DNA of 64,000 nt from Nitrosopumilus sp. GTDB taxonomy: Archaea > Thermoproteota > Nitrososphaeria > Nitrososphaerales > Nitrosopumilaceae. The DNA is taken from contig JAOTWS010000001.1 of assembly GCA_029862745.1 (NCBI GenBank), positions 124,001-188,000 of the forward strand, read 5' to 3'. Numbering within the stretch: the stretch's first letter is position 1; each line of letters opens with the position of its first letter. Shown in pieces: positions 12,426 through 48,688 of the stretch. The notes under the pieces are model-generated. The model did no database searches, was not told the DNA's origin, and saw only the letters and a program-made list of their open reading frames with translations. The position numbers were made by a program, and so were the translations under genes.

Positions 12426-13247
12426 ATGCATTCAAATAGTTCCGCAAAAGACATGGCAAAAAAAGGACTAGACAATTTACTTTCAAACAAAAGCCAAAAT
12501 ATAGTAGATGTTATGTTGGGACGAGAGAATACACAGACAGTAAGCTCGGATATGCTTGTAGAGGAAGTCCAGAAAAGAGTATGGAATGCACTCAAACAAG
12601 ATCAACAGTACTCTGATGTTATCACTGATTCTGATAGATTTCTTCGCGATAATGTTTTTTCTAGTACAACAATGATTGTAATGTATGTGGATCTGGTAGG
12701 CTCCACACAGATGGTCATGGACCTTCCACAAAAACAATTGGCCATGATAGTAAGCTCATTTGCTCAGGAAATGGGATATGTTATAAAACAACATAATGGG
12801 TATATTCTAAAATACGTAGGAGATGCAGTAATAGGTTACTTTGCAGAAAAAGGAAGTGTTGCCAACATTGCAGACAGTTCAGTTAGTTGTGCAGAATCAA
12901 TGCTTAAAGTAGTAAAAACAGGAATTAATCCAGTTTTACAGCAATATGACTACCCTGATCTTGCCATAAAAATTGGAATTGATTTTGGGGAGAACACAAT
13001 CATTCGTTATGGGGATAATGAGGAAGAATCACACGTTGATCTCCTTGGACCTTCAATGAACATGGCGGCTAAAATACAGGGTCATGCTCAACCAGACCAG
13101 ATTCTAATAGGAGATCAAGTTTACAAAAAACTAGACTCTGCCATACAGGAATATTTTGAGCAAGTCAAATGGAAAGATAGTATCTGGAATTATAGAAATA
13201 AAGTTACTGGAAAAATATATCCAGTTTATGCATATGTTGGGAAATAG
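12426..13247 (+). CDS. Class III adenylyl cyclase (cyclase homology domain)
   Basis: Predicted to make cAMP from ATP in the cytoplasm. The cyclase homology domain spans about residues 78-272. Metal-binding Asp89 is in YVDLVGST and Asp133 in YVGDAVIGYF. Adenine-selecting Lys129 (ILKYVGD) and Asp205 (VDLLGPSMN) are both present, as is Asn212; the usual catalytic Arg is Lys216 (MAAK). The N-terminal 75 residues are a helical region without a named domain. There is no membrane segment. The stop is 7 bases before the HD-domain gene, so the two form an operon. The Arg-to-Lys change is conservative, so activity is likely. Confidence 0.88.
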   Translation: MHSNSSAKDMAKKGLDNLLSNKSQNIVDVMLGRENTQTVSSDMLVEEVQKRVWNALKQDQQYSDVITDSDRFLRDNVFSSTTMIVMYVDLVGSTQMVMDLPQKQLAMIVSSFAQEMGYVIKQHNGYILKYVGDAVIGYFAEKGSVANIADSSVSCAESMLKVVKTGINPVLQQYDYPDLAIKIGIDFGENTIIRYGDNEEESHVDLLGPSMNMAAKIQGHAQPDQILIGDQVYKKLDSAIQEYFEQVKWKDSIWNYRNKVTGKIYPVYAYVGK

Positions 13248-13254
13248 ATGGTGA

Positions 13255-14580
13255 GTGATTTTGTCGCTTACAAAAATACCTAGCACACAAGAACTGCGAG
13301 AAATAATTATTGAATTATTAAAAAAAGAAAACTTAGATGATGCATGTTACGTTGACATGCTAAACTATGCATTGGGATTATTTAATGAACAGAATCTAAA
13401 GAACAGGTATTATGGATACCACAATACTAGTCACGAGATGATAGTAACTTATAACACTCTTTTGGCATCAAGAGGAAAGGAATTTCATGGTACAGTGTCT
13501 AAAGAGGACTTTAAGCATCTGTTCACAGCATCACTGTTTCATGATTATGAACCAGGCAAAATAGAAGATAAACCTCATGAAGAGAGTGCAGCAAATTTTG
13601 TGACTCAAGATAAGAAACTCTTGAATTTGTTCAAAGAATCTGAAATTGATTCTCATCTTGTAGCATCATTAATCTTGCGAACATCCTATCCATGGAGTTT
13701 AAAAAAATCAGAGTATGAGCCCTTGATATTAAGCCATTTTGTACAATCAAAATATGCCCATAATAAAACAATGCAGGAACACTATGCCAATCTAGGATGG
13801 TTCATGTCGGTTGCGGACAGAATAGGTGCATACGCACTAGGAGATTTTTTGGATGCGATGGAACTTGCAAAAAAGAATGCACATTCGCTGGGATGGGGTT
13901 CTGAATACATAATACAAAGAAGCGTAACATACTTTGAGACACTGCTAAACGAAGAACAGGAGATGACAGATAAGGTGATGCGCTCAATTCCAAAATCAAT
14001 GCGCAAGACATTCATGAATAATGTTTTGGGATTTTTCAAACTTCGTGAAAAAGAACTAGAGGTACGAGCATCAATAGTATATGATGAAATTAAATTAACA
14101 ACAAATTTGGAAAAATGTGAATTTGATGACGAACAGGCAAACAGTTTGTTTGATATCTATGACGAACTTCCAGATCCTCTTCAGTTTAAGAAAAAAACAT
14201 TCTTTGAATCCCTTAAAGATCCAGAAACCATTCTAATTACATTGAGACTAGGATCCAATACTGGAGAGATATTGGGGTTTGCCAAAGGTGGGCCACTGGA
14301 GGGTTATGGGCTTCCAGATAGCATCAATGATACGAATTATGGAAAATCCAATACTGTTTTTTTGGAACCATTAGCACTAAAGATGGGATATTGGGGTCAG
14401 GGTGGAGGCTCACAAATGAGACAACACTTCAGGAAGATTGCAAAAGAAAAAGGCTATGATTTTCTAACCAGCTTACAATTGCGTGAGGTCATACAAAGAA
14501 GAATAGAAAGAAATGACAGTATAGAGTTTGTCCAGCAACTTAATCCTGAAAAACTAGACTATTACAGGGTAATTCTTTGA
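13255..14580 (+). CDS. HD-type cyclic-nucleotide phosphodiesterase-like domain fused to GNAT-like domain
   Basis: Residues 50-200 carry a class I phosphodiesterase-style HD core: YGYHNTSHEMIV (H56, H60), SLFHDYEPG (H96-D97) and SVADRIGAY (D188), matching the YHNxxHxxxV and HDxxHPG signature except that HPG is EPG. This would hydrolyse a cyclic nucleotide, plausibly the product of the upstream cyclase. Residues 325-441 resemble a GNAT acetyltransferase: ILGFAKGGPLEGYG, then VFLEPLALKMGYWGQGGGSQ, a candidate acetyl-CoA loop. A helical linker (225-320) joins them. GTG 13255 or TTG 13261 is the start, since the ATG at 13248 is out of frame. Both enzymatic calls are inference. Confidence 0.7.
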   Translation: MILSLTKIPSTQELREIIIELLKKENLDDACYVDMLNYALGLFNEQNLKNRYYGYHNTSHEMIVTYNTLLASRGKEFHGTVSKEDFKHLFTASLFHDYEPGKIEDKPHEESAANFVTQDKKLLNLFKESEIDSHLVASLILRTSYPWSLKKSEYEPLILSHFVQSKYAHNKTMQEHYANLGWFMSVADRIGAYALGDFLDAMELAKKNAHSLGWGSEYIIQRSVTYFETLLNEEQEMTDKVMRSIPKSMRKTFMNNVLGFFKLREKELEVRASIVYDEIKLTTNLEKCEFDDEQANSLFDIYDELPDPLQFKKKTFFESLKDPETILITLRLGSNTGEILGFAKGGPLEGYGLPDSINDTNYGKSNTVFLEPLALKMGYWGQGGGSQMRQHFRKIAKEKGYDFLTSLQLREVIQRRIERNDSIEFVQQLNPEKLDYYRVIL

Positions 14581-45673: not shown

Positions 45674-46390
45674 ATGTATAGTAAACAAATAGAATTTAAA
45701 AATCTAATTAATTCAAAGGATTTTTTTGATTATTCAAAAAAGGTTAAATTTAGCCAAGAGTTAGCCCAGATACACCAGAAATCAGAAAACACAGATTCAA
45801 CTCCTTCGACATCGGATTATTTGATAGCATTTTCAACTCGGCCTCAAAAGTTTTGTGTAGGATATGTAGACATCATTAATTCAACAAAGATTTCTGCAAG
45901 TATTATACCAGAAAAGGTATCAACATACTACGAGATATTTTTAAATTCAATGGCTAAAATTGTTGGAATGTATGGCGGAAGGGTAATTAAAAATATTGGT
46001 GACTGTTTATTATTTTATTTTCCAAATTCAACCCAGTCATCAGAAAAAGGTATGAAAAATTGCTTACAATGCGGAACAAAAATGATAGAGGCTCAACCAA
46101 TCATTTCAAAAGTGATAAAATCAAAAAAACTTCCAAGTCTAAATTTTAGAATAAGTGCAGACTATGGATCAGTGGTCATTATGAATACAAACACTTCCGA
46201 TCAAATAGATTTAATCGGACCACCAGTAAATATGTGTGCCAAGATAAATCATTGTGCAGGATACAATGAATTCGTCATTGGTAGTGATTTAGTACAGTAT
46301 GTCAAAAAATTTGAAGAATACAAATTTCATGAGATAAAGAGTTGTAATATTGGGTTTAGACAATCATATCCTGTTTATCGTGTGAACTAA
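45674..46390 (+). CDS. Class III adenylyl cyclase-like protein, 238 aa
   Basis: Second cyclase homology domain of the window. Metal Asp66 (GYVDIINSTK) and Asp110 (KNIGDCLLFYF), Lys106, Asp179 (QIDLIGPPVN), Asn186 and Lys190 occupy the expected sites, the same set as the 12426 protein including Arg-to-Lys. About 55 N-terminal residues have no named domain. Soluble and probably cAMP-producing. TATA-like TCTATAAG near 45644 suggests a leaderless start at ATG 45674. Convergent with a FilR1-type regulator. Confidence 0.82.
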   Translation: MYSKQIEFKNLINSKDFFDYSKKVKFSQELAQIHQKSENTDSTPSTSDYLIAFSTRPQKFCVGYVDIINSTKISASIIPEKVSTYYEIFLNSMAKIVGMYGGRVIKNIGDCLLFYFPNSTQSSEKGMKNCLQCGTKMIEAQPIISKVIKSKKLPSLNFRISADYGSVVIMNTNTSDQIDLIGPPVNMCAKINHCAGYNEFVIGSDLVQYVKKFEEYKFHEIKSCNIGFRQSYPVYRVN

Positions 46391-47485: not shown

Positions 47486-48688
47486 ATGAATTATTATTAC
47501 AAAACATTCTTGAGTACAGAAATTCCAAATGATCTTATTTATGCATCATTTTTTTTCATTGATATTGTGGGATTATCAAACCCAATTTTATCTACTGAAA
47601 CACAACGAACAAAAATCAAAATCCTAAATGAGTTAATATATGATTGCAACACTTTTGTTGAAACCCCTAAAAATAATCTACTGATACTACCTACAGGAGA
47701 TGGGATGTTAATAGGGTTCAAAAATGGGTTGGAGCAACCTCTAAAGTTATCAATAGAATTTCATAAAAAATTGTCAATTTACAACAAGAATGCAACTGGT
47801 TCTGAAAAAATTAAAACGCGTATTGGTTGTCACATAGGCCATGTTTTTGTTGTTCGTGACATTTATGGGAATGTTAACTTGTGGGGACCTGGGGCTATTT
47901 TATCTAGACGGATAATGGACATGGGAGATACGGATCATATTTTATTAAGTAATGAAATTGTTGAAGATTTATTTGAAATTTCAGATGATTATAAAAAATT
48001 CATCCACCTTCTTCATAATTTTGGAATAAAACATGGGGATAATTTATTAATTTATTCAGCATATGGAGAAGGATTTGGAAATTCATCATTGCCAAAAGAA
48101 AAAATAAAAATAAAAACCAAAGATGTAGATATTGAAAGTAATACAATTTGTGACAGGATTGTATTTGATGTTATCCCTAAAGACACCACTGGAATGACAA
48201 GGTTTAGAAGAACGTATTATTTTTTAAACCAATCGTCTGAACCAGTATATGAATTTGCGACAAATTTCATAGCAAATTCTAAAGAAGAATTACTAGGGTT
48301 AAATTTTAAAGCCTATGATGAAAAAGATAATGAATTAAAGATTTCAAAAGTTTTAGCCTCAACACCATATTCTAAAAAAATTATTATAAAATTACTAAAA
48401 CCAATTTTCAGGGGAGATTCTGGAAAATTATTAATAATTTACGACATAAAACTGACAAAAAATAACTTTGAAAACATTTTTACAACAGATGCTCAAAGTT
48501 TTGAGATTAATTTTAAACATTATGCTAACATTGAATTTTTCCCAGTATTATATTATATGGATGCCGAAATTGGAAGTAAGGATATAATTGAAAAATCTTC
48601 AGAAATAAGAAAAGGAATGTTCAAAGAACTTATGTGGAGTAGATCACATGGACTCAAAATTAAGGATAGTATTCGTTTAGAGTGGTGA
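47486..48688 (+). CDS. Divergent class III cyclase homologue with unknown C-terminal domain, 400 aa
   Basis: Residues 18-200 are a cyclase homology domain: Asp26 (FFFIDIVGL) and Asp72 (LPTGDGMLIGF) keep the two metal ligands. The adenine-selecting Lys is Leu68, the Asp is Asn131 (VNLWGPG), and Asn is Ile138, while Arg142 is kept, so an altered substrate or loss of activity is possible. Residues about 215-400 form a beta-rich domain (YYFLNQSSEPVYEFATNFIA, FRGDSGKLLIIYDIKLTKNN) that I cannot name. TATA-like CATATTTAATC about 26 bases before ATG 47486 suggests a leaderless mRNA. Confidence 0.72.
   Translation: MNYYYKTFLSTEIPNDLIYASFFFIDIVGLSNPILSTETQRTKIKILNELIYDCNTFVETPKNNLLILPTGDGMLIGFKNGLEQPLKLSIEFHKKLSIYNKNATGSEKIKTRIGCHIGHVFVVRDIYGNVNLWGPGAILSRRIMDMGDTDHILLSNEIVEDLFEISDDYKKFIHLLHNFGIKHGDNLLIYSAYGEGFGNSSLPKEKIKIKTKDVDIESNTICDRIVFDVIPKDTTGMTRFRRTYYFLNQSSEPVYEFATNFIANSKEELLGLNFKAYDEKDNELKISKVLASTPYSKKIIIKLLKPIFRGDSGKLLIIYDIKLTKNNFENIFTTDAQSFEINFKHYANIEFFPVLYYMDAEIGSKDIIEKSSEIRKGMFKELMWSRSHGLKIKDSIRLEW

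Follow-up and report, generated by a model that had tools for sequence, protein, structure and literature searches.

A predicted fusion of a phosphodiesterase-fold HD domain with a GNAT domain, encoded next to a class III cyclase in an ammonia-oxidizing archaeon

Analysis of a 64,000-nucleotide stretch of a Nitrosopumilus sp. genome (the whole of which is here called the window) uncovered a class III nucleotide cyclase gene followed by a gene for a two-domain protein, termed the HD-GNAT protein. Its N-terminal half is predicted to adopt the fold of the class I cyclic-nucleotide phosphodiesterases (PDEs) and its C-terminal half that of the GNAT acetyltransferases, while no membrane segment was recognised in it. 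The first of these folds is known chiefly from the cAMP/cGMP phosphodiesterases of eukaryotes, and here it is joined to an acyltransferase-like domain. Our preferred reading, advanced tentatively and at somewhat less than an even chance, is that the PDE-fold HD domain binds, and probably hydrolyses, the 3',5'-cyclic nucleotide made by a cyclase, thereby switching the fused GNAT acyltransferase. The HD-GNAT protein and the cyclase gene suggest a so far undescribed route in the ammonia-oxidizing archaea (AOA), an abundant group, from a cyclic-nucleotide signal to the acylation of proteins or metabolites. The hosts encode many cyclases yet, in this genus, have no known cAMP receptor; the HD-GNAT protein is a concrete candidate for this missing receptor, and the question can be approached with one purified protein.

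Both open reading frames proposed in an earlier, sequence-only reading of this DNA are present on the same strand, a 273-aa frame at 12426-13247 being followed by a 441-aa frame at 13255-14580 (Table 1). The latter is not a chance frame, because relatives with 36-67% identity to it are found across ammonia-oxidizing archaea. Homologues of 439 aa, and likewise those in genomes G007 and G035, have a start codon that corresponds to TTG 13261, and a GGTGA stands at the usual distance ahead of this codon. These observations, together with the 13-nt gap common to the window, G035 and G213, make TTG 13261 the better start; it is likely, on comparative grounds, that translation begins there and that the cyclase stop is separated from it by 13 nt rather than by the 7 bases read earlier. 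Residues of the HD-GNAT protein are numbered below from GTG 13255. The whole genome encodes four HD-GNAT genes and nine cyclases.

Table 1. Features of the cyclase and HD-GNAT genes, with positions in the window
Feature	Position	Strand	Basis
Class III nucleotide cyclase, 273 aa	12426..13247	+	PF00211 50.7 bits; CyaC and CyaB the best PDB relatives
Cyclase metal Asp89	12690-12692	+	Alignment of 39 archaeal cyclases
Cyclase base-selecting Lys129	12810-12812	+	Alignment of 39 archaeal cyclases
Cyclase metal Asp133	12822-12824	+	Alignment of 39 archaeal cyclases
Cyclase base-selecting Asp205, transition-state Asn212, Lys216 replacing transition-state Arg	13038..13073	+	Alignment of 39 archaeal cyclases
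Intergenic spacer, 13 nt	13248..13260	+	Sequence; G035 and G213 spaced identically at 13 nt
GGTGA, possible ribosome-binding site inside the spacer	13250-13254	+	Sequence
HD-GNAT protein from likely TTG start	13261..14580	+	Equivalent codon starts homologues; longest frame from GTG 13255
Predicted HD domain, class I PDE fold, residues 8-280	13276..14094	+	AlphaFold2 pLDDT 92; Foldseek best 50 all class I PDEs
YHNTSH motif, residues 55-60, His56 and His60 invariant	13417..13434	+	29/29 sequences
His96-Asp97 (FHD motif, 95-97)	13540..13545	+	29/29 sequences
Asp188 of ADR motif (187-189), fourth metal ligand	13816..13818	+	Asp 24/29, Glu 5/29; aligns with PDE metal Asp
Predicted GNAT domain, residues 281-441	14095..14577	+	Foldseek to GNATs probability 1.00; PF00583 E 1e-5
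Divergent GNAT motif A YWGQGGGS, residues 379-386	14389..14412	+	Trp380 and Gly381 invariant, Gly383 variable

An alignment of 29 HD-GNAT relatives served as input to AlphaFold2, which returned a full-length model with a mean pLDDT of 87. When the HD half was folded alone, its best 50 Foldseek matches in the PDB were without exception class I cyclic-nucleotide PDEs, among them PDE8A, TcrPDEC1, PDE5A and PDE10A (E 9e-4 to 3e-2, TM up to 0.64), and no other HD family ranked above them within these 50, although the many PDE entries in the PDB mean that such an unbroken run overstates the case. At the profile level, Pfam PDEase_I was matched by 24 of the 29 members (best 4.5e-4, all below the Pfam cut-off) and Pfam HD by 23, with weak matches of a few members to YfbR-like 5'-deoxynucleotidase (best 0.0028). 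A search of the PDB with the HD profile gave PDE5 as the best chains (E 0.11), and hhalign of the HD family against a two-sequence PDE profile gave a probability of 57% over 48 columns. The PDE link was missed by single-sequence searches of the PDB and NCBIfam, and was revealed by profiles and structure. Taken together, the models support a class I cyclic-nucleotide PDE fold for the HD half rather than another HD fold, which agrees with the nucleotide-type HD core proposed earlier. The likeness to the class I PDEs (PDE1-11; Pfam PDEase_I) extends over about 280-310 alignment columns and includes the YHNxxH acid and metal motif, the HD dyad, the Thr and the late Asp; the HD-GNAT protein differs from them in its 12-16% identity, its C-terminal GNAT domain and its archaeal host.

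The pocket residues were placed by an alignment of the family with sequences of PDE4D and PDE5A that are identical to PDB chains, with reference to the published list of eight PDE pocket residues and the base-binding Gln, and to the HD-x-x-H signature of PROSITE PS00126 (PMC5617230). The YHNxxH, FHD and ADR motifs noticed earlier are all present in the protein. Six residues, namely His56 (the acid), His60, His96, Asp97, Glu109 and Thr143, are invariant in 29/29 sequences, and the members with Glu in place of Asp188 are five distant ones. Of the class I PDE signature previously ascribed to the protein (YHNxxHxxxV/HDxxHPG), the YHNxxH half stands; the HDxxHPG half is absent, the family having HD[FY][DE]P at this site, and the PS00126 signature is broken by Pro100 at the His position in all 29 sequences. 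The base-binding Gln of the PDEs is likewise absent from all 29, its place being taken, by sequence alignment and not superposition, by Ser/Ala223 or, one register on, by Val224. In PDE9 a Gln-to-Glu change lowered cGMP affinity 25-fold (PMC3069055). By model and alignment the HD domain is thus PDE-like, with the predicted PDE fold and the first-metal residues, and not a demonstrated PDE. Since it has neither the HDxxH His nor the base-binding Gln of the class I PDEs, whether it can hydrolyse cAMP is uncertain, and it could serve purely as a sensor; the previous suggestion that one operon both makes and destroys the messenger goes further than these residues allow.

Two alternatives bear directly on this pocket. 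In the first, the HD domain is a degenerate PDE, a non-hydrolysing sensor of the cyclic nucleotide through which the GNAT domain is gated, as the two losses, the Glu in place of Asp188 in distant members and the failure to find a receptor with a cyclic-nucleotide-binding (CNB) domain in the genus would all suggest. We consider it distinctly unlikely, as in all families compared the acid and the first-metal ligands either do not vary or change conservatively, and a pure sensor would not be expected to show this. In the second, the HD domain is a nucleotidase-like metal phosphohydrolase acting on a non-cyclic or other nucleotide, the cyclase neighbour is incidental, and nucleotide clean-up is tied to acylation. 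The missing base-reading and second-metal-shell PDE features and the YfbR-like matches point in this direction, whereas the best 50 fold matches include no non-PDE HD structure; together with the gene linkage considered below, this makes it a serious contender, if on balance an unlikely one.

For the C-terminal half, the full HD-GNAT model was matched by Foldseek to GNATs with a best TM by target of about 0.6-0.67, and the GNAT-like fold read earlier is thereby borne out at the level of models (Table 1). Malonyl-CoA decarboxylase matches in the same full-length search were dropped, since an rmsd of 18 A and a TM of 0.25 indicate that these proteins have no two-domain arrangement in common with the HD-GNAT protein. 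The sequence signal is faint, Acetyltransf_1 (PF00583) being reached at E 1 by 12 of the 29 members, and motif A has the form W-G-x-x-G-G in the family, as against the canonical R/Q-x-x-G-x-G/A, with Gly383 present in 7/29. In principle, therefore, the domain might be catalytically dead or binding-only, and the protein simply a divergent PDE to which an accessory domain is attached, as the Trp at the Arg/Gln position, the variable first Gly and the limited reach of PF00583 would suggest. Against this, Glu349, Glu371, Trp380-Gly381, Arg389 and Tyr436-Tyr437-Arg438 are invariant in 29/29 sequences, which suggests a working site and renders a dead domain improbable. The models support a GNAT fold, whose acyl-CoA binding is putative.

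The cyclase matches Pfam Guanylate_cyc (PF00211) at 50.7 bits (cut-off 21.9), and its nearest solved structures are the class III adenylyl cyclases CyaC and CyaB, with which its catalytic domain shares the two metal Asp residues and the base pair of Lys plus Asp/Thr. The class III adenylyl cyclase set is present as Asp89, Asp133, Lys129, Asp205 and Asn212, so that the earlier assignment of both metal Asp residues and the Lys/Asp pair was correct. Lys129/Asp205 form the adenylate pair and argue, by alignment, for ATP as substrate and cAMP as product. The archaeal members differ from CyaC and CyaB in carrying Lys for the transition-state Arg, which is absent from 39/39 archaeal cyclases aligned (Lys216 in the window), and because of this replacement even cyclase activity is unproven. 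The transition-state Asn is replaced by Ser in 3/39 cyclases, including that adjoining HD-GNAT in G213. A further difference from CyaC and CyaB is an N-terminal region of 80 residues without an assigned family. Few archaeal cyclases are of class III (PMC8646023), and class III cyclases have been noted in sponge-associated Thaumarchaeota (PMC9289680). Elsewhere in the window, two cyclase-domain genes at 45674-46390 and 47486-48688 lie about 1.1 kb apart with a FilR1-like regulator gene on the opposite strand between them; in the second of these (400 aa) the C-terminal half, about 230 aa, has no Pfam match.

The window copy of HD-GNAT belongs to a six-member clade with an SH-aLRT of 100. Within it, the cyclase lies 13 nt upstream of HD-GNAT in three genomes (the window, G035 and G213), and at the same place in G007 there is a frameshifted relic of the cyclase's last codons, whose alignment score of 36 compares with 20 for the best of 500 shuffles and 16 for the best of 45 other HD-GNAT loci. 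The small gene upstream of this relic is common to G035. Apparent relics in L042 and G225 were not counted, as their scores were reached by 4/500 and 13/500 shuffles respectively. The three intact pairs and the relic imply that the pair was present in an ancestor within the clade; sequence comparison thus supports an ancestral pair in the window's paralogue clade, in which, judging by the relic, HD-GNAT has outlived at least one loss of the cyclase. As a generally conserved operon the pair is rejected, most HD-GNAT genes in related genomes being without a neighbouring cyclase, and evidently the protein does not need an adjacent one. The gene linkage expected earlier therefore holds for one clade and fails for most of the family. 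The scarcity of cyclase neighbours favors the nucleotidase-like alternative, while the pair kept at identical spacing in three genomes, with a relic in a fourth, speaks against it. The 90%-complete genome G027 has a window-type cyclase, 79% identical to that of the window, and no HD-GNAT was found in it. The core HD-GNAT copy has a conserved synteny of its own, with a DnaJ-domain gene, a small gene without an assigned family and a FAD-linked oxidase. In another paralogue clade (L044, L057, L078, L152 and L153) a divergently transcribed CBS-domain gene always stands ahead of HD-GNAT, and a cyclase is found within 1-4 kb in three of the five.

In a phylum sample of 398 genomes, of which 73 have archaeal AmoA and 325 do not, the HD domain is present in 72 of the 73 amoA-positive genomes and in none of the others, and its restriction to the former is established within this sample. 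HD-GNAT proper is present in 70/73, and two of the 72 HD-domain genomes have a membrane-anchored HD-methyltransferase fusion alone. The sole exception is G089, a 99%-complete AmoA genome of the same family with four cyclase matches, in which no HD-GNAT was found; HD-GNAT also occurs in two additional AmoA genomes belonging to a different family (f3). Class III cyclases occur in 72/72 HD-domain genomes, and four genomes of the sample have cyclases without HD-GNAT. A scan of genome contigs returned one relative. The distribution resembles that of a marker and is not an independent statistical test, as the amoA-positive genomes may form a single clade, and the co-occurrence of HD-GNAT, cyclases and AmoA may reflect one event.

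A further possibility is that the two genes constitute a Pycsar-like antiviral module, in which a pyrimidine cyclase is coupled to an effector. They resemble Pycsar (PycC plus effector) in having a class III cyclase first and a putative effector gene second, and PADLOC PycC models match the window cyclase at 5e-29; this call was rejected as evidence because the ordinary adenylyl cyclases CyaC and CyaB match the same models equally well (93 and 103 bits). The base-selecting residues are, moreover, an adenylate pair, and the known Pycsar effectors combine a cNMP-binding domain with a TIR or TM domain, whereas HD-GNAT, which has no PADLOC match, has neither. HD-GNAT is also a conserved chromosomal gene, near-universal in amoA-positive genomes and with its core copy in conserved synteny; no relatives were found in phages, plasmids or viral contigs. 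An antiviral role of this kind appears very improbable.

The closest functional parallel is offered by MtPat (Rv0998) and MsPat (MSMEG_5458), the type III GNATs regulated by cAMP (PMC8556138), in which a domain of a cyclic-nucleotide-handling fold likewise precedes the GNAT domain. They differ in that their sensor is a CRP-type cNMP-binding domain, in place of which the HD-GNAT models have an N-terminal HD domain of the PDE fold, and in that cNMP control is proven for them and inferred for HD-GNAT. By analogy, HD-GNAT is best read as a variation on the same cAMP-GNAT theme. The CRP-type cNMP-binding domain (PF00027) has no match in the whole source genome and was found in 0/37 genomes of the genus, though most of these have class III cyclases; the same search detected it in several further families of the order and in 11 of the 14 genomes used as controls.

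On the preferred reading, a class III cyclase, which in the window's clade is or was encoded just upstream, would make the 3',5'-cyclic nucleotide, and the HD domain would bind this product and probably hydrolyse it. The nucleotide-bound HD domain would switch the GNAT domain, as the cNMP-binding domain does in MtPat and MsPat (PMC8556138), and the GNAT domain would use acyl-CoA to acylate a protein or a small molecule, hydrolysis making the switch self-limiting. Three points here are inferred: the identity of the ligand with the cyclase product (cAMP, going by the Lys/Asp pair), its hydrolysis by the HD domain and the control of the GNAT half by this domain. The open-access literature yielded no paper joining an HD domain, an acetyltransferase and ammonia-oxidizing archaea, and the main text of two comparative AOA genome papers mentions neither acetyltransferases nor cyclases; as supplements and most subscription papers lay outside this survey, the novelty of HD-GNAT is provisional.

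A broader and more speculative version, which we hold to be unlikely, is an AOA-specific pathway in which a PDE-fold receptor is fused to a transferase, GNAT in most genomes and a methyltransferase in Nitrososphaeraceae-like ones, with the genus covered here having no CRP-type receptor, so that hydrolysis of the messenger would act as a timer for covalent modification. That a related HD domain is also fused to a methyltransferase is a hint of a more general module.

As a separate observation, six proteins of family f8 (L144, L145, L146, L147, L148 and L149; about 790-860 aa) contain a PDE-like HD domain with the motifs YHNFHH ... LLHDYDP. On its N-terminal side lie what appear to be membrane helices and on its C-terminal side a methyltransferase domain (PF02390, E about 6e-7), which makes this a second fusion of the related HD type to a group-transfer enzyme.
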